Below are positions 32,250 to 41,116 of a stretch of 64,000 nt of DNA, piece after piece (the stretch's first letter is position 1; the number at the start of each line of letters is the position of its first letter). The notes under the pieces are model-generated. The model made no database searches. It saw only the letters and a program-made list of their open reading frames with translations, and was not told the origin of the DNA. Position numbers and translations under genes: made by a program. The DNA comes from Saprospiraceae bacterium (GTDB taxonomy: Bacteria; Bacteroidota; Bacteroidia; Chitinophagales; Saprospiraceae): contig JALWSS010000094.1 in NCBI GenBank assembly GCA_026993525.1, positions 1 through 64,000 on the forward strand, written 5' to 3'.

Positions 32250-33257
32250 TCATCCAATAACCGCATTCCACACCGCCGACACCTTCCGGTAAAGCATTTC
32301 CGCTTCCTGGAAATTCAGTGTTTGTTGTCCGTCGGAAGCGGCCTTTTCCGGGGTTTCGTGGACTTCAAGGAGCAGGCCGTCAGCGCCGGCGGCCACGCAG
32401 GCCAGGGCAATGCTGGCCACGAAACGGCGCACACCGATGCCGTGGGAGGGGTCTGCAACGACCGGCAGGTGGCTTTTTTCCTTCAGAATGGGAATGGCAT
32501 TGATGTCGAAGGTATTGCGGCTGGCAGTTTCAAAAGTGCGGATGCCCCGCTCACAGAGAATGATCTTTTCGTTGCCGTTGCTGAATACGTATTCGGCGGC
32601 CTGCAACAATTCCTCGACGGTGCCCGACATGCCCCTTTTCAGCAACACGGGCTTGTCCACCCTGCCCAGGGCATCCAGCAGGTTGAAATTCTGTGCATTG
32701 CGGGCCCCCACCTGGAAGATATCCACATAGGGTTCCATCGGCTCGATCTGCTCGGTGTGCATTACCTCCGTGATGATCTTTATTCCGTTTCGCTTCGCAA
32801 TGGCCGACCACATTTTGAGGCCTTCCAGCCCCAGTCCCCGAAACGAATAGGGAGACGAACGGGGCTTGTACACCCCGCCCCGCATGATCCTGATGCCGTT
32901 TTTCAGCAGGTGTTCCACGGTTTTTTCCACCTGCTCCCCGCTTTCGATGGAGCAGGGGCCCGCCATGGTGCTCAGACCTTTGCGACTGATGACCACCCCG
33001 TCACCCAGATCTATGCTCGTATTCTCCACCCGCCACTTGCGGCTCACCAATTTGTAAGGATCACTCACCCGGTGGATGTCGGCCACGCCGGGCATGGTGC
33101 CCAGCCGCCGGATGTCGAATTCGGTTTTGCCTACACAAACCAGGTACTGCCGGAACTGCGTGTGCACCTCTGTGGCTTTGTATTTCAGGCTTTGGATGGC
33201 CTCCAGGAGGGTCATTTTCTCCTGTTCCGTAATGTCGGGTTTGAGTTGTACGATCAT
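32250..33257 (-). CDS. 3-deoxy-7-phosphoheptulonate synthase, type I-beta
   Basis: 335 aa. First enzyme of the shikimate pathway (PEP plus erythrose 4-phosphate). An N-terminal ferredoxin-like regulatory domain (residues 1-75, as in Thermotoga DAHP synthase) precedes the TIM barrel with AGPCSIES, MRGGVYKPRSSPYSF, EVMHTEQ, VGARNAQNFNLL, CERGIRTFE and ADPSHGIG. No chorismate mutase domain is fused. It is the last gene of the trp operon, 82 bp after trpA, which ties precursor supply to tryptophan demand. Confidence 0.92.
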   Translation of the reverse strand: MIVQLKPDITEQEKMTLLEAIQSLKYKATEVHTQFRQYLVCVGKTEFDIRRLGTMPGVADIHRVSDPYKLVSRKWRVENTSIDLGDGVVISRKGLSTMAGPCSIESGEQVEKTVEHLLKNGIRIMRGGVYKPRSSPYSFRGLGLEGLKMWSAIAKRNGIKIITEVMHTEQIEPMEPYVDIFQVGARNAQNFNLLDALGRVDKPVLLKRGMSGTVEELLQAAEYVFSNGNEKIILCERGIRTFETASRNTFDINAIPILKEKSHLPVVADPSHGIGVRRFVASIALACVAAGADGLLLEVHETPEKAASDGQQTLNFQEAEMLYRKVSAVWNAVIG

Positions 33258-33339: not shown

Positions 33340-34125
33340 TTAATCACTAAGATTGGGCACGTCCGGCAACCTGAGGTTTCCGATGAATTCTCTGGCTGCA
33401 ATGCCTTGTTCCTGCGAGCGGATAAAAGCACTACCCACCACACCGCCGTTGAGGTGCCGGCAAACGGTGCTGAAATCTTCATGGGTGGAAATGCCAAAGC
33501 CCGCGAGGACGGGATTTTTCAAATTCATGTTGGCCAGCCTTTGGAAATAAGCTTGCTGCTCAGGGCCAAAACCCCGATTGCCTCCTGTGGTACTGCTGGT
33601 TGAAACCGCATACAGGAACCCGTTGGAAGCCTCGTCCAGTTGCCGGATGCGCTCCCCGGAAGTTTGTGGAGTAACGAGAAAAATACTGCCAAGGTCATAT
33701 TCTTCGAAAAGCGACTTGCAGTTGTGCTCATGCCACTGCAAAGGCATGTCAGGAAGTATCAATCCATCCACGCCCACCTCCCTGCATTGTTTGCAAAAGC
33801 GCTGCAGCCCAAATTGCAACACCGGGTTCAGGTAGCCCATCAGCACCAGCGGCACCTGTGTTCTGGCCCGGATACCGGCCAACTGCCCAAACAGCCGCCC
33901 GATGCTCATGCCTTGCTCCAGTGCCTTTTTGCTGCTCTGCTGGATGGTGGGCCCGTCGGCCAGCGGATCACTGAAGGGCATGCCCACCTCGACGATGTCG
34001 GCACCGGCTTTGGCCAGTTGAACAATGGTGTCTGCCGTTCCGTCAATCTCCGGGTAACCGGCGGTGAAGTACACTGCCAGCAGCCCGCTGTTTTTTTGGT
34101 TGAAAAGTTTTTTCAGGTTGTTCAT
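33340..34125 (-). CDS. trpA: Tryptophan synthase alpha chain
   Basis: 261 aa. Cleaves indole-3-glycerol phosphate. The catalytic Glu46 (VEVGMPFSDP) and Asp57 (LADGPTIQ) are present, and the loop TPQTSGERIRQLDEASNGFLYAV is conserved. It follows trpB by 47 bp. Confidence 0.95.
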   Translation of the reverse strand: MNNLKKLFNQKNSGLLAVYFTAGYPEIDGTADTIVQLAKAGADIVEVGMPFSDPLADGPTIQQSSKKALEQGMSIGRLFGQLAGIRARTQVPLVLMGYLNPVLQFGLQRFCKQCREVGVDGLILPDMPLQWHEHNCKSLFEEYDLGSIFLVTPQTSGERIRQLDEASNGFLYAVSTSSTTGGNRGFGPEQQAYFQRLANMNLKNPVLAGFGISTHEDFSTVCRHLNGGVVGSAFIRSQEQGIAAREFIGNLRLPDVPNLSD

Positions 34126-34172: not shown

Positions 34173-35364
<1,192 letters not shown>

Positions 35365-35381
<17 letters not shown>

Positions 35382-36021
35382 TGAAAAACTGTTTTAATAG
35401 TTCAGGGTCTTTGCGTCCCGGCCCGGTTTCAAAGCGGCTGTTGAGGTCGAAGCCGGCGAGCATTGGGTGCCATGTAGAGGCATCCTTCAGGAGAGGGCCA
35501 TGTTCCGGGCCGATGCCACCACTGAGCAGGAAAGGTGTTTGTCCACGATAATATTTGAGCTGTTGCCAATTGAAGGGCACGCCGTTGCCACCCCGTCGGG
35601 GGCCTTTGGCGTCGAAGACGAAGCGTTCACAAAACGGCTCGTAGCGCTCCGTTTTACCGAAGGAAAAGCCAGGTCCAACACCGAAAGCCTTCCATACCTC
35701 CAGGCCAGTATTTGCCATCGCTGCGCAATAATCCGGCGACTCATCACCGTGCAATTGAACCACATCGAGTTCCAACTCCCCGGCCGTGGCCAGCACCCGT
35801 TCCGGCTCTTCGTTCACGAACACACCCACTTTTTTTATTTCCTTCGGTAAATGCCGTACCCAGGCCAACTGCCCGGGCCCACCGGCATGGCGTGGCGATT
35901 TTTCGAAGAAAATGAAGCCGAGGTAATCGGGCCTGAGCGCCGCAACGGCCCGGGCGTTGTCCTCATGGCACATGCCGCAGATTTTTACCGAAGGGATGCT
36001 ATGTTGGAAAATTTTGTCCAT
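35365..36021 (-). CDS. trpF: Phosphoribosylanthranilate isomerase
   Basis: 218 aa TIM barrel. The catalytic Cys is in VKICGMC and the catalytic Asp in [12 protein letters not shown]; the phosphate loop [10 protein letters not shown] is present. The ATG at 36021 (MDKIFQ) is preferred over a TTG at 36036. It lies 11 bp after trpC and overlaps trpB by 17 bp. Confidence 0.93.
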
Positions 36022-36032
36022 TGTGCGCTTCT

Positions 36033-36839
36033 TCAACGGGCTTCAGCCGGTTTGCCCAAATGCGATTCAACCCCTTTGATGAATTGCCGGCAAGCCAGTT
36101 CCGGCCTTGCATGTTTCATAAAACCCTCTCCGATGAGGAAGCCGTCGAAACCGGCCATTTTCAGTTCTGCCACCGTGGCGGGGTCCTGCAATCCCGATTC
36201 GGAGATTTTGACCATTTCCTTCGGTAAATGCGGCAGCAAGCTGAGCGAAGTGCGGGTATCCACGCTGAAATCCGCCAGGTTGCGGTTGTTGATGCCCACC
36301 ACGTTGATGTGTTCGTTGAGGTGGTCCAGTTCAGACCCACGGTGCAGTTCCAGCAGCACCTCCAGCCCCAAAGACCGGGCAAAAGCCGCCAGTCGCCTGG
36401 TTTCCTCCGGTTGCAGCGCAGCTGCGATGAGCAAAACGACATCGGCACCAATGCTCTTTGCCTCCGCGATCTGGTACTCGCTGAGGATGAAATCCTTGCG
36501 CAGGATGGGGCAGTAATTGAATTTCCGGGCCGTGGCCAGATCCTCGTTGCTGCCACCGAAAAAGTGCGCATCGGTCAGCACCGACAGCGCCGAAGCCCCG
36601 GCCTGCATGTAGCCGATGGTGACCTGCTCCACATCGGCATAGGCGTTGATGACCCCTTTCGACGGCGAGCGCCGCTTGAACTCTGCAACGATGCCCAATC
36701 GGTCGGAACGGCGCAGGTAGCGGCTGAGGCTCACCACAGGCGTTTCGAAAAAGATGCTCTGCTCCAGCAATGCCACCGGATAAAAGGCCTTCCGCTGCTC
36801 TACTTCCTGGCGCTTGTGGGCGATGATTTTTTTTAGCAT
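36033..36839 (-). CDS. trpC: Indole-3-glycerol-phosphate synthase
   Basis: 268 aa TIM barrel. The motif VAEFKRRSPSKG contains the substrate-binding and catalytic Lys, followed by ALSVLTDAHFFGGS, LRKDFILSEYQI, VGINNRNLADFSVD and SESGLQDP. Not fused to TrpF, unlike E. coli. It begins 213 bp after trpD, with repeats in the gap. Confidence 0.96.
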   Translation of the reverse strand: MLKKIIAHKRQEVEQRKAFYPVALLEQSIFFETPVVSLSRYLRRSDRLGIVAEFKRRSPSKGVINAYADVEQVTIGYMQAGASALSVLTDAHFFGGSNEDLATARKFNYCPILRKDFILSEYQIAEAKSIGADVVLLIAAALQPEETRRLAAFARSLGLEVLLELHRGSELDHLNEHINVVGINNRNLADFSVDTRTSLSLLPHLPKEMVKISESGLQDPATVAELKMAGFDGFLIGEGFMKHARPELACRQFIKGVESHLGKPAEAR

Positions 36840-37075
36840 GTTATGAAGATTATGGCCCCGATATTCATCGGGGATGGAGGTTTATGAAGGATTATGGAGG
36901 ATTATGAGGTTTAGCAGAGAATACCACGAGCTACGAGCTACAGCCTGCCCCGTGCCGATGCCGATCCCGAAAGCTTTCGGGATTCGGCATCGGCATCGGG
37001 GAGCCACCAGCTACGAGCTACGAGCTATGAGCTACGAGCTACGAGCTACGATCTATGAGCTACCAGCTACGAGCA
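36840..37075. repeat. Repeat block between trpC and trpD, partial composite element
   Basis: GGATTATG units near the trpC start, then the second half of the composite element (GTTTAGCAGAGAATACCACG, CTACGAG heptamers), a long near-palindrome centred at about 36974 (arms GCCGATGCCGATCCCGAAAG, one extra base) and CTACGAG heptamers running into the last codons of trpD. On the trpD strand the heptamer is CTCGTAG, carrying TAG. Confidence 0.85.
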
Positions 37076-38060
37076 TCTCCAACGCTCTTTTTGCCCGGCC
37101 GCTTTGCAGTGCTTCTTGTGCCCGGGCCCGGCAGTCTTCCAGGCTTTCCTTCGGGAAACAACAACGCAGGGCGGCAGCGGCGTTGGCCAGCACCACCTGG
37201 TTTTGGGCGGGGGTACCCCGGCCCTCCAGGATGTCGGTGAAAATCCGTGCACTGGCTTTTATGCTTTCGCCTCCGGCAATGTCACTTTCCGTAACCCTGC
37301 CGCCGAGTTGTTCAGGCTCCAGGGTTTCGGGGCCTCCTTCGGTAAAAGTCATCACCGGGGCGGTGAGCGATATTTCGTCGTAGCCGCCGAGGGTGTGTAC
37401 CACGCAAAAGCTGCTGCGTTGGCCATTTCGCACGTCTTCCTGCATCAGGTAGCCGTACAGGCGGAGCAGTTCCAGGTTGAAAACCCCGGTGAACTGGTGC
37501 GCAGGGCGGGCCGGGTTCACGATGGGCCCCAGCATGTTGAAAAAAGTCTTGATGCCCAATGCCCGACGAACAGGCCCCACGCTCTTCAGTGCCGGATGAA
37601 ACAACGGGGCATGCAGAAAGCAAATGCCCGCCTCATCCAGTTGCCGCCTCAAGTTGTCAGTGTCATTGGTGAAGCGGTAACCGAGGGCCTCCAACACGTT
37701 GGAGGAGCCACAGACCGAGCTGACGCCGTAGTTGCCGTGCTTCACCACCTGGCCACCGGCACCGGCCACCACGAAGCTGGCCAGCGTGGAGATGTTGAAA
37801 GTGTTTTTTCCATCGCCGCCGGTGCCACAGAGGTCCACCGCCGGCAGGCCGTCCAGGTCGAAGGGTACGCACAAATCCAGCAACGCCTGGCGGAACCCGT
37901 CGAGTTCTTCGATGGAAATGCTGCGCATCAGGTAAACCGTCAGAAACGCTGCGATTTGCGCCTCGTTGGCTTCGCCCCGTGTGATCATCGTCAGGGCGTC
38001 ATAAGCCTCCGGCCGGCTGAGCCGCTGCTGTTCGAAAAGTTTGTTGAGAATATTTTTCAT
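37053..38060 (-). CDS. trpD: Anthranilate phosphoribosyltransferase
   Basis: 335 aa. Transfers phosphoribose from PRPP to anthranilate. Conserved VDLCGTGGDGKNTFNIST, KHGNYGVSSVCGSSNVLEAL and the N-terminal helical bundle are present. Its last residues MLVAGSS and stop are encoded by the CTCGTAG-type repeat, so the native C-terminus has probably been replaced by repeat sequence. Confidence 0.95.
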   Translation of the reverse strand: MKNILNKLFEQQRLSRPEAYDALTMITRGEANEAQIAAFLTVYLMRSISIEELDGFRQALLDLCVPFDLDGLPAVDLCGTGGDGKNTFNISTLASFVVAGAGGQVVKHGNYGVSSVCGSSNVLEALGYRFTNDTDNLRRQLDEAGICFLHAPLFHPALKSVGPVRRALGIKTFFNMLGPIVNPARPAHQFTGVFNLELLRLYGYLMQEDVRNGQRSSFCVVHTLGGYDEISLTAPVMTFTEGGPETLEPEQLGGRVTESDIAGGESIKASARIFTDILEGRGTPAQNQVVLANAAAALRCCFPKESLEDCRARAQEALQSGRAKRALEMLVAGSS

Positions 38061-38132: not shown

Positions 38133-38456
38133 ATGACGCTTACAAAAAAGTCCATCGAACTACCATTGCGACAAGACGACCAGGGTGTCATCAGGGTTGG
38201 CGATTCCCGGGTTTCGCTTGATCTGATCATTCAGTCCTGGCAGAATGGTTTCTCAGCCGAGGAAATTGCTTCGCAATTCCCAGTCATTTCATTGGCAGAT
38301 GTATATGCTTCCATCAGTTTTTACCTGCAAAATCAAGAGCAGGTGGATGCTTATCTGGCAGAGAATGATGAATTAGCAACGTCATACAGACAAATGCTTG
38401 AATCCTTATATCCTCCCTCCGCCATTCGGAAGATATTGTCCAGTCGGGGTGACTGA
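38133..38456 (+). CDS. DUF433 protein, antitoxin-like, on the opposite strand inside the trp operon
   Basis: 107 aa. The DUF433 pattern is clear: IRVGDSRVSLDLIIQSWQNG, then SAEEIASQFPVISLADVYA and a helical tail. DUF433 proteins are often antitoxin-like DNA-binding partners of a PIN-like DUF5615 protein; no such partner follows, so this is an orphan or a remnant of a pair. It sits between trpG and trpD in antisense orientation with its own -7 box. Codon use is slightly more AT-rich than that of its neighbours. Real function unproven. Confidence 0.75.
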   Translation: MTLTKKSIELPLRQDDQGVIRVGDSRVSLDLIIQSWQNGFSAEEIASQFPVISLADVYASISFYLQNQEQVDAYLAENDELATSYRQMLESLYPPSAIRKILSSRGD

Positions 38457-38459
38457 AAT

Positions 38460-38512
38460 CCCATCGGACCCCGTCACGCTTGTCACGTCTGTCACGCTTG
38501 TCACGTCTTTCA
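38460..38512 (-). repeat. 9-bp TGA-containing repeats after trpG
   Basis: Minus-strand units CGTGACAAG/CGTGACAGA, four copies, starting at the trpG stop codon. Confidence 0.75.
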
Positions 38513-39079
38513 CAACCCCACCCAATTCCGCAGCATCTCTCTCCCCTGTGGCGTCATCACACTTTCCGGATGGAACTGCACACCCCGCAGGTCCCAGGTC
38601 TTGTGGGTCAGTCCCATCACGGTGCCTTCCCCGTCCTCGCAGGTGAGGCGGAAGCAGTCGGGAATGCCTTCCGGAGCCACCACCCAGGAGTGGTAGCGCC
38701 CGGCATCGAAAACCGGTGGCAGGTTCCGGAACAAGGGCTCCGATTCGTCCAGCACCCGGATTTGCGAAGCGACACCGTGAAAAACCCGCTCCATGTTGAG
38801 CAGCTTGCCGCCATACACTTCAGCCATGGCCTGCAGGCCCAGGCATACCCCTAAGATGCTCTTCTCCGGCGCCCAGGTCTCGATCAGCTCGCACAGGATG
38901 CCCGATTCGGCTGGCAGCCCCGGCCCCGGCGAGAGCAGGATTTTGTCGTACTGCCCCACCTCCTCCAGGCTGATCTCGTCGTTGCGGGCCACAACCGGCC
39001 GGGTGCCGGTGATCTCCTCCAGGTACTGCACCAGGTTGTAGGTGAATGAGTCGTAGTTGTCGAAAACGAGAATGCGCAT
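38510..39079 (-). CDS. trpG: Anthranilate synthase component II (glutamine amidotransferase)
   Basis: 189 aa class I amidotransferase. Nucleophile Cys in LGVCLGLQAM, oxyanion segment LLSPGPGLP, catalytic His-Glu in GVQFHPESVMTPQG. It supplies ammonia to TrpE and may also serve PabB, which has no neighbouring amidotransferase here (inference). Confidence 0.95.
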   Translation of the reverse strand: MRILVFDNYDSFTYNLVQYLEEITGTRPVVARNDEISLEEVGQYDKILLSPGPGLPAESGILCELIETWAPEKSILGVCLGLQAMAEVYGGKLLNMERVFHGVASQIRVLDESEPLFRNLPPVFDAGRYHSWVVAPEGIPDCFRLTCEDGEGTVMGLTHKTWDLRGVQFHPESVMTPQGREMLRNWVGL

Positions 39080-39090
39080 TTTTGAGGGTT

Positions 39091-39370
39091 TGTCGGTTGT
39101 CGGTTGTCGGTTGTTCCCGAGCTTGCCTCGGGATCGGTTGCCGGTTGCCGGTTGCCGGTTGCCGGATTACTCTGTTCAACTCCGTTTTTAACTCTCACAA
39201 CTCTGTGGTTAAAAAGGTGTAGAGTTGAGAGTTAAGGCTGTAACCTGTCCGGCTGGCCAGACGGGGATTTGAAGATGCTAGCTCTGACTACGAGCTACCA
39301 GCCACGAGCTACAGCCTGCCCCGATCCCTCGGGGAGCTACCAGCTACCAGCTACCAGCTACCAGCCAGCT
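39091..39370 (+). repeat. Composite modular element, copy 2
   Basis: Same module order as the copy at 30103: TCGGTTG heptamers, CCCGAGCTTGCCTCGGG hairpin, GTTGCCG repeats, ACTCTGTTCAACTCCG..CTCTGTGGTTAA, CTGGCCAGACGGGGATTTGA, CTACGAG-type repeats, CCCCGATCCCTCGGGG hairpin, ACCAGCT repeats. The left end faces the trpG start and the right end runs into the last codons of trpE. Confidence 0.85.
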
Positions 39371-40799
39371 CCTCCGCCCGCACGATGGCTTTGCGCAGGG
39401 CGCCGACTTTGTGGAAGACCTCCTGGAGTTCCCGTTCCGGAACAGAGTGTTTGACCACGCCGGCGCCGGCCTGGTAGTGCAGCCGGTTGCCCTTTGACAA
39501 AAAGCTTCGGATGAGGATGGCGTGGTTGGCCTCACCGGTGAAGGTGAAAAAGCCCACACAGCCACCGTAATAGCTGCGGCCTTCTTTTTCGATTTCAGCG
39601 ATCAGTTCCATGGCCCGGTACTTGGGGGCACCGCTGAGGGTGCCCGCCGGAAAGGTCTCAGCCAGCAGTCGCATGGCCGAACAATGCTCCGGCAACTCCC
39701 CCGCCACCTCCGACACCAGGTGGATCACATGGCTGTAAAACTGCACCTCCCGGAAAGTCTCCACCCGCACCTTGCGGCAGAGTCGGTTGAGGTCGTTGCG
39801 GGCCAGGTCCACCAACATCACGTGCTCGGCATTTTCTTTCGGATCGGCGGCGAGGGCCCCGGCGGCCCGGCGGTCGGTGGCATCGTCGCCCGTGCGGGGG
39901 AAGGTACCCGCGATGGGGTTGATGCGGGCCAGGCGGCGGCCACCGGCTTCCTGGCCCAGACGCACCTGCGCCTCCGGGCTGGACCCGAAAATCCGGTAAT
40001 CGGAATAGTCGAAGTAAAACAGGTACGGCGATGGATTGACGGAGCGCAGGGCCCGGTACACGTTGAAATCATCCCCCTGGAATTGCTGACTGAAGGGCCT
40101 GCTCAGCACGACCTGGAACACATCGCCCCGCTGGCAGTGCTGCCGGCCGCGCTCTACCATCTCCAGGTAGTCAGAATCGCTGAGGGCAGACCTCTCTTCA
40201 CCAATGCGGCGAAATGGGAAACCGGGCACCGGCGCCACCTGCAACTGCTCCAGCAATGCCGGCAGTTCAGGCTCCATGTCAGCCATCCGGTTCTCGATGG
40301 CGGTCATGGTGTTGTCGAAATGGTTGATGGCCAGCACAAAGCGGGGCAGGTGGTAACTGAGCAGGGGAATTTCCCGTTCAGGGCTGTTTTCGTTTTCCAA
40401 CCGGAGGGTCTCAAAAAACTCCACCGCCCCGTAAGCCGAATAACCGAAAAAGCCGTTCAGTGACTGAGCAGGCCCCGTTTTTCCCGAGGGTTGGTACCGC
40501 CTGAAAAACTGCTCCAGCTTTGGCACCAATGACTGGCGGTTGGCCACCGGCTCTATTTCTTTTTTCCCTTCGGGCAATTCAAATACGAGCCCGGAAGCCT
40601 CCAGCCGGACCCCGGCCAGTTTTCCGAGGCAGATGAAAGAAAAGCTGTTTTCCTGACCGTGGTAATCGGAACTCTCCAAAAGTAAAGCCCCCGGATAGCG
40701 GTCCCGGAGCCGGAGAAAGAGACTCACAGGAGTGACCGTGTCGGCCAGGAGTGTTTTCGAAGAAGTGAGAATTTCTGTCATTTTATCAGTGGCCATCAT
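39351..40799 (-). CDS. trpE: Anthranilate synthase component I
   Basis: 482 aa. Converts chorismate to anthranilate with TrpG. The LLESS motif near the N-terminus (GALLLESSDYHG) is the tryptophan feedback site. The catalytic domain shows FQVVLSRPFSQQF, RINPIAGTFPRTG, AEHVMLVDLARNDLNR, AGTLSGAPKYRAMELI and YQAGAGVVKHSVPE. The ATG at 40799 (MMATDKMTEIL) starts just after the attenuator terminator; the ATG at 40781 is also possible. The final residues ELAGSW and the stop come from the AGCTGGT-type repeat. Confidence 0.95.
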   Translation of the reverse strand: MMATDKMTEILTSSKTLLADTVTPVSLFLRLRDRYPGALLLESSDYHGQENSFSFICLGKLAGVRLEASGLVFELPEGKKEIEPVANRQSLVPKLEQFFRRYQPSGKTGPAQSLNGFFGYSAYGAVEFFETLRLENENSPEREIPLLSYHLPRFVLAINHFDNTMTAIENRMADMEPELPALLEQLQVAPVPGFPFRRIGEERSALSDSDYLEMVERGRQHCQRGDVFQVVLSRPFSQQFQGDDFNVYRALRSVNPSPYLFYFDYSDYRIFGSSPEAQVRLGQEAGGRRLARINPIAGTFPRTGDDATDRRAAGALAADPKENAEHVMLVDLARNDLNRLCRKVRVETFREVQFYSHVIHLVSEVAGELPEHCSAMRLLAETFPAGTLSGAPKYRAMELIAEIEKEGRSYYGGCVGFFTFTGEANHAILIRSFLSKGNRLHYQAGAGVVKHSVPERELQEVFHKVGALRKAIVRAEELAGSW

Positions 40800-40830
40800 G
40801 GATGCTGGTTTTGACTCATTCTTAAAATCA

Positions 40831-40866
40831 AAAAAGGCCCGCCGTGAGTCCGGCAGGCCTTTTTTT
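40831..40866 (-). terminator. Attenuator terminator of the trp operon
   Basis: On the minus strand the stem is GGCCTGCC / GGCGGGCC with an 8-nt loop and a TTTTTT tail, also flanked by an A-run that extends the stem. It lies between the leader peptide stop and the trpE start. The loop and 3' arm contain ACTCACGG, which is complementary to CCGTGAGT in the leader. Confidence 0.88.
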
Positions 40867-40908
40867 GCAAAGAAAATACTTACAACAGGCACACGGGGCT
40901 ACTCACGG
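40842..40908 (-). promoter_or_regulatory. trp antiterminator pairing
   Basis: Leader segment CCGTGAGT (plus-strand 40901-40908) can pair over 8 bp with ACTCACGG in the terminator (plus-strand 40842-40849), which would block terminator folding. The leader segment spans the stop codon of the leader peptide, so a ribosome finishing the peptide would mask it and a ribosome stalled at the Trp codons would leave it free. Confidence 0.8.
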
Positions 40909-40985
40909 AACCGGGGTTCACGGGAAAGCCACCACCACCAGTTTTGGTGATTCGAAGGAGCCTTGTATGTATTCAGATTTTGCAT
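40899..40985 (-). CDS. trpL: trp operon leader peptide with four consecutive Trp codons
   Basis: 28-aa ORF, ATG at 40985 to TAG at 40899, MQNLNTYKAPSNHQN followed by WWWW and LSREPRFRE. The four TGG codons are at 40929-40940. Tryptophan is rare in proteins, and this run sits just upstream of an antiterminator/terminator pair in front of trpE, so it is a leader peptide that senses charged tRNA-Trp. The larger frame to 41120 is not needed. No Shine-Dalgarno is seen, as usual for the phylum. Confidence 0.88.
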   Translation of the reverse strand: MQNLNTYKAPSNHQNWWWWLSREPRFRE

Positions 40986-41116
40986 TTTTTCAGTTGCACT
41001 TTTCACAAATGCGTGGGGCAAAGAAAAGGGTATGCCAACCAAAGAAGCAAGTTTTTGGCCAAAGATTTTGGGGGGGAGGTTTCTTCTCCTGCCATTGCTC
41101 CTGAAAAATTTACGGC

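Follow-up and report, generated by a model that had tools for sequence, protein, structure and literature searches.

The genes for tryptophan synthesis in the 64,000-nucleotide stretch of Saprospiraceae DNA analysed here (the window) are preceded by a short ORF with a run of tryptophan codons, which raises the question of whether their transcription is controlled by attenuation and, if so, which strands of the leader RNA would form the antiterminator. We consider it very probable (roughly 0.9) that transcription of the trpE, trpG, trpD, trpC, trpF, trpB, trpA and DAHP synthase genes is controlled here by a ribosome-mediated attenuator responding to charged tRNA-Trp. This reading is built on a conserved Trp run, a terminator, the spacing between them, and two co-varying helices. 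A sequence-only reading of the window had proposed that the locus follows the logic of the enterobacterial trp attenuator. Comparison with relatives strongly supports ribosome-mediated attenuation by tryptophan overall, and the same comparison speaks against the enterobacterial pairing geometry.

Direct reading of the minus strand finds the 28-codon ORF that had been claimed, running from an ATG at 40985 to a TAG stop codon at 40901–40899 and containing four consecutive TGG codons (Table 1). The Trp-run leader ORF stands before a trp gene, with an intrinsic terminator between the two. Leaders from members of the same genus read MKIQGTYGTRSTAQNWWWWLSSEPRFRE and MIATFKYQHTSTAQNWWWWHFQEPAFRE. The promoter-like element upstream of the ORF has one mismatch to TAnnTTTG, the −7 promoter element of Bacteroidota, and at 62 of 111 loci, against an expectation of 6.9, a TAnnTTTG box lies no more than 100 nt ahead of the leader ATG.

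Table 1. Positions of the trp leader elements and the downstream genes in the window.
Feature	Positions	Strand	Basis and remarks
Promoter-like element, Bacteroidota type	41019..41050	(-)	TTG ... TTTCTTTG, upstream of the leader ORF; read directly, start site putative
Leader peptide ORF	40899..40985	(-)	28 codons, MQNLNTYKAPSNHQNWWWWLSREPRFRE; read directly, counterparts at the same position in relatives
Four regulatory TGG (Trp) codons	40929..40940	(-)	Read directly; Trp runs kept here in relatives
Stem P1, 5' strand (equivalent of the 1:2 helix)	40960..40984	(-)	Fold and swap test
Stem P1, 3' strand	40866..40890	(-)	In the post-stop spacer; fold and swap test
Antiterminator strand CCGTGAGT	40901..40908	(-)	Last leader codons; its final base is the first base of the stop codon
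Antiterminator partner ACTCACGG	40842..40849	(-)	Terminator loop and top of the 3' arm
Intrinsic terminator	40830..40865	(-)	15-bp stem, 6-nt loop, T-rich 3' end giving a U tract; by folding; ahead of trpE
trpE (anthranilate synthase I)	39351..40799	(-)	TIGR00564, E 3e-112, below cut-off as for all family members; start codon chosen by us
trpG	38510..39079	(-)	TIGR00566, above cut-off
trpD	37053..38060	(-)	TIGR01245, above cut-off
trpC	36033..36839	(-)	NF001377, above cut-off
trpF	35365..36021	(-)	Best match phosphoribosylanthranilate isomerase, E 1e-41, below cut-off
trpB	34173..35381	(-)	TIGR00263, above cut-off
trpA	33340..34125	(-)	TIGR00262, above cut-off
DAHP synthase	32250..33257	(-)	NF006421, above cut-off

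The terminator that had been placed at 40831–40866 exists and forms a 15-bp stem on folding, with limits that shift by one base, to 40865–40830. The 8-bp complementarity proposed between the end of the leader ORF (40908–40901) and the terminator (40849–40842) is exact. The 181-nt leader folds with an energy of −67.3 kcal/mol (z −4.7), which none of 200 shuffled sequences equals. Taken from the window alone, the leader–terminator duplex is not significant, as 35 of 200 dinucleotide shuffles match or beat it. A search of the window with the Rfam covariance models gave no match at the gathering (curated) threshold, and a relaxed search of the leader gave sub-threshold matches only, none of them usable. 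One candidate, Thr_leader, was rejected: its score of 30.6 bits compares with a cut-off of 55, and it lies on the wrong strand, where it scores because the terminator is palindromic.

The significance of the attenuator comes from its conservation across relatives rather than from the window by itself. The comparison used the sequence upstream of 164 trpE genes (family, 90; other members of the order, 7; of the class, 26; of the phylum, 41). We scored as a leader any ORF that begins with ATG and contains WW or at least three Trp codons, with the same test on the reverse strand as a control. A Trp-run leader and a terminator precede trpE in 82/90 regions from the family, 7/7 from elsewhere in the order, 24/26 from elsewhere in the class, and 9/41 from the rest of the phylum, for a total of 122 of 164, against leader-like ORFs on the reverse strand in 2 of 164. 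A terminator follows each of the 122 leaders; counted from the first Trp codon of the run, it lies 62–76 nt away in the middle 80% of loci. Loci that miss the leader definition include five with WxW leaders (L096, L108, L149, L153, and L156), one with a TTG start (L002), and one at a contig end. In a large group from the wider phylum with higher-scoring TrpE (L031–L057 and L059), no Trp-run leader was found upstream of trpE. A wider-phylum locus, L116, has a leader before trpE with spaced Trp codons, MKNKNKYFGFTWAWFWFNKSCGTPV.

Which strands of these leaders pair was addressed with swap tests, in which the duplex energy of a locus's own two segments is compared with the energies obtained when partners are exchanged among loci. 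Across the 82 family loci, two pairs of segments co-vary: the leader start and Trp codons with the post-stop spacer (stem P1, z −14.7), and the part of the ORF downstream of the Trp codons (the ORF tail) with the loop and 3' arm of the terminator (z −11.4). Shared ancestry inflates these z values, and the strict set of 36 dissimilar loci, which provides the safer figure, gives −8.6 for leader start with spacer and −4.6 for tail with loop and 3' arm; with 85 distinct terminator apices the values are −13.8 and −11.0. The other loci of the class behave in the same way, with −5.5 for leader start with spacer, −4.5 for tail with loop and 3' arm, −0.2 for tail with 5' arm, and −0.4 for spacer with 5' arm. 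The related trpE leaders thus have both the conserved Trp runs and the co-varying stems that the sequence-only reading had suggested looking for. The leader-side words themselves differ widely, with 106 different words among 122 loci, and their partners in the terminator differ with them, examples being CCGTGAGT/ACTCACGG (window), CCGGGTGA/TCACCCGG (L138), and GTCGTGA/TCACGAC (L087). Among the best helices of the 122 loci, 94 touch the loop, 85 the 3' arm, and 53 the 5' arm. These patterns point to a 1:2-type stem between the leader coding region and the post-stop spacer, and to a predicted antiterminator helix, incompatible with the terminator, that is conserved by co-variation. Two observations count against the attenuator mechanism proposed below: P1 and the core antiterminator have zero bases in common, and a clear loop-touching helix is absent from some relatives.

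In the E. coli trp attenuator, the antiterminator is the 2:3 helix, formed between a strand downstream of the leader stop codon and the terminator's 5' arm. The same geometry could operate here, with the complementarity to the loop and 3' arm being secondary. The overall logic and the spacing match E. coli, when the stalled state is modelled for the window, the spacer too is paired with the 5' arm, and the leader tail pairs with the 5' arm in the 16 loci from the rest of the order and phylum (z −5.4, with −1.0 for loop and 3' arm). In the family, however, co-variation with the 5' arm is near zero for both the ORF tail (z −1.0) and the spacer (z −0.8), in contrast to the value for tail with loop and 3' arm, and it is likewise absent from the reduced sets of 85 and 36 loci. 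We therefore regard the enterobacterial geometry as unlikely for this locus.

A different possibility is that the terminator is constitutive and that the Trp-rich ORF acts in some other way, either by translation coupling or through a leader RNA or peptide that works in trans, like peTrpL of S. meliloti. A short terminated leader RNA would be expected in any case, and the trans route has a known precedent in another trp leader peptide (PMC7298713). Nevertheless, the spacing from leader to terminator is kept and both helices co-vary, the ~100 nt between the leader stop codon and the trpE start are far for reinitiation, and the leader peptide varies in sequence outside the Trp run, with no conservation across genera, all of which makes this possibility very improbable. 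That a random Trp-rich ORF happens to lie before an unrelated terminator is scarcely credible: four consecutive TGG codons are not rare in themselves (the 5.2-Mb genome has 24 such sites, and equally many of a control pattern) and the pairing alone is not significant, but the arrangement is conserved in more than 110 loci of the class, against the 2 of 164 in the reverse-strand control.

For the ribosome-mediated attenuator, we infer the ribosome positions, the kinetics, and the response to tryptophan as follows. When tryptophan is short, the ribosome translating the leader would stall on the four TGG codons and leave the end of the ORF free. The freed strand could then pair with the terminator loop as it emerges from RNA polymerase and zip into the top of the 3' arm. 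With its loop captured, the terminator would not be nucleated and the polymerase would read through. When tryptophan is ample, the ribosome would proceed to the stop codon, which overlaps the antiterminator strand, and cover that strand, so that the terminator could form. Without translation, P1 would enclose the antiterminator strand and the terminator would again form. We modelled this sequence of events by folding partial transcripts truncated at an assumed ribosome edge, with everything 5' of that edge removed, an approach that yields equilibrium folds for an assumed footprint. When the ribosome sits on the first Trp codon in the window leader and 2–8 nt of the 3' arm are exposed, the probability that the loop and 3' arm are paired upstream is 0.88–0.97 and that of the terminator is 0.00; when it has reached the stop codon, or is absent, the terminator has a probability of 0.98–1.00 from 4 nt of the 3' arm on. 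Means over 106 loci go in the same direction. These folds show that the switch is possible, which is not a demonstration that it occurs. For the full-length transcript at equilibrium the terminator is favoured in every ribosome state, a result that counts against the mechanism; because the terminator wins in every state once the full 3' arm is out, control must be kinetic.

Downstream of the leader, trpE, trpG, trpD, trpC, trpF, trpB, trpA, and the DAHP synthase gene follow in that order, all on the minus strand, and are presumably co-transcribed. Between trpG and trpD, on the opposite strand of the otherwise collinear cluster, lies a gene for a 107-residue DUF433 protein (PF04255, E 9e-8) at 38133–38456 (+). 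The gap between trpE and trpG (39080–39360, about 270 bases) contains short direct repeats, (tagctgg)n near trpE followed by (gcaaccg)n and (acaaccg)n before trpG.

Histidine genes in the family have leaders of a related kind. Upstream of hisG, His-run leaders are found at 24 of 30 family loci (L246–L275), 23 of them with a terminator. They resemble the trp leaders in their codon run, terminator, leader–spacer stem (z −6.8), and stop-proximal strand complementary to the terminator loop, although the test against loop and 3' arm is weaker (z −3.0). Unlike the trp leaders, many appear to pair with the loop and the top of the 5' arm: as read from the sequence, many end in KW-stop, where GGCAAATGGT matches the complement of ACCATTTGCC in the terminator (top of the 5' arm and loop). 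Many leaders of this set close with words resembling GGCAAATGGTGA, which are complementary to the loop of the terminator. With a threshold of E 1e-10, hisG is without a match in the source genome and in 27 others among 60 family genomes, which suggests that roughly half of the family has lost or altered histidine synthesis. Regions upstream of ilvB in the family show no convincing Ile/Leu/Val runs (4/30).

On balance we lean towards the view that Saprospiraceae and other Bacteroidia have a distinct form of attenuator for trp, with a related form for his. Its antiterminator strand would lie in the last leader codons and stop codon, inside the loop of the leader–spacer stem, and capture the emerging terminator loop and the top of the 3' arm, whereas other Bacteroidota would keep the 5'-arm geometry. 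The findings indicate that attenuation coupled to translation routinely controls trp (and his) genes throughout the class. By implication, transcription and translation run close enough together in these bacteria for such control to work, and the loop-capture geometry would need tighter timing than the textbook case.

Transcriptome mapping in Flavobacterium psychrophilum, a member of the same phylum, led to the suggestion that leader peptides mediate attenuation, the same type of control, ahead of operons for amino-acid biosynthesis (PMC9723704); the main text of that study gives it one sentence, with no mention of trp or of a pairing geometry. A 2010 comparative study by Lopatovskaya and others (doi 10.1134/S0026893310010164, cited in PMC4833913) may cover Bacteroidota and may contain an earlier prediction. 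In the open literature searched, we found no description of a trp attenuator or its pairing geometry in Bacteroidota. The sequence-only reading, which knew of no such case for Saprospiria, agrees with this result for trp, but the attenuator is not special to that group, being present upstream of almost every trpE gene sampled in the class and of some in the wider phylum. The existence of an attenuator in the phylum is thus ordinary and expected, and the antiterminator geometry would be the new part.

Among known systems, no Rfam leader family matches the trp leader of the window at the gathering threshold. The 16 leaders from the rest of the order and phylum (e.g. L058, L060, L111, L112, L114, and L123) share the Trp-run leader and terminator before trpE but as a group place the antiterminator on the 5' arm, the classical arrangement. 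The trpL leaders of E. coli and other Enterobacteriaceae are alike in having a Trp run in a short leader ORF, a leader–spacer stem, an intrinsic terminator before trpE, and near-equal spacing (59–62 nt from first Trp codon to terminator among the leaders listed). In 69 distinct Enterobacteriaceae leaders, the spacer pairs with the 5' arm at −9.8 kcal/mol, compared with −5.2 for the ORF tail with the loop and 3' arm. Because these leaders are too alike to give a swap test of the 2:3 helix any power, the contrast with E. coli rests on the duplex energies and the established 2:3 pairing. There, the antiterminator is formed by a strand beyond the stop codon and the 5' arm, whereas here the antiterminator strand precedes and overlaps the stop codon and appears to pair with the loop and 3' arm.
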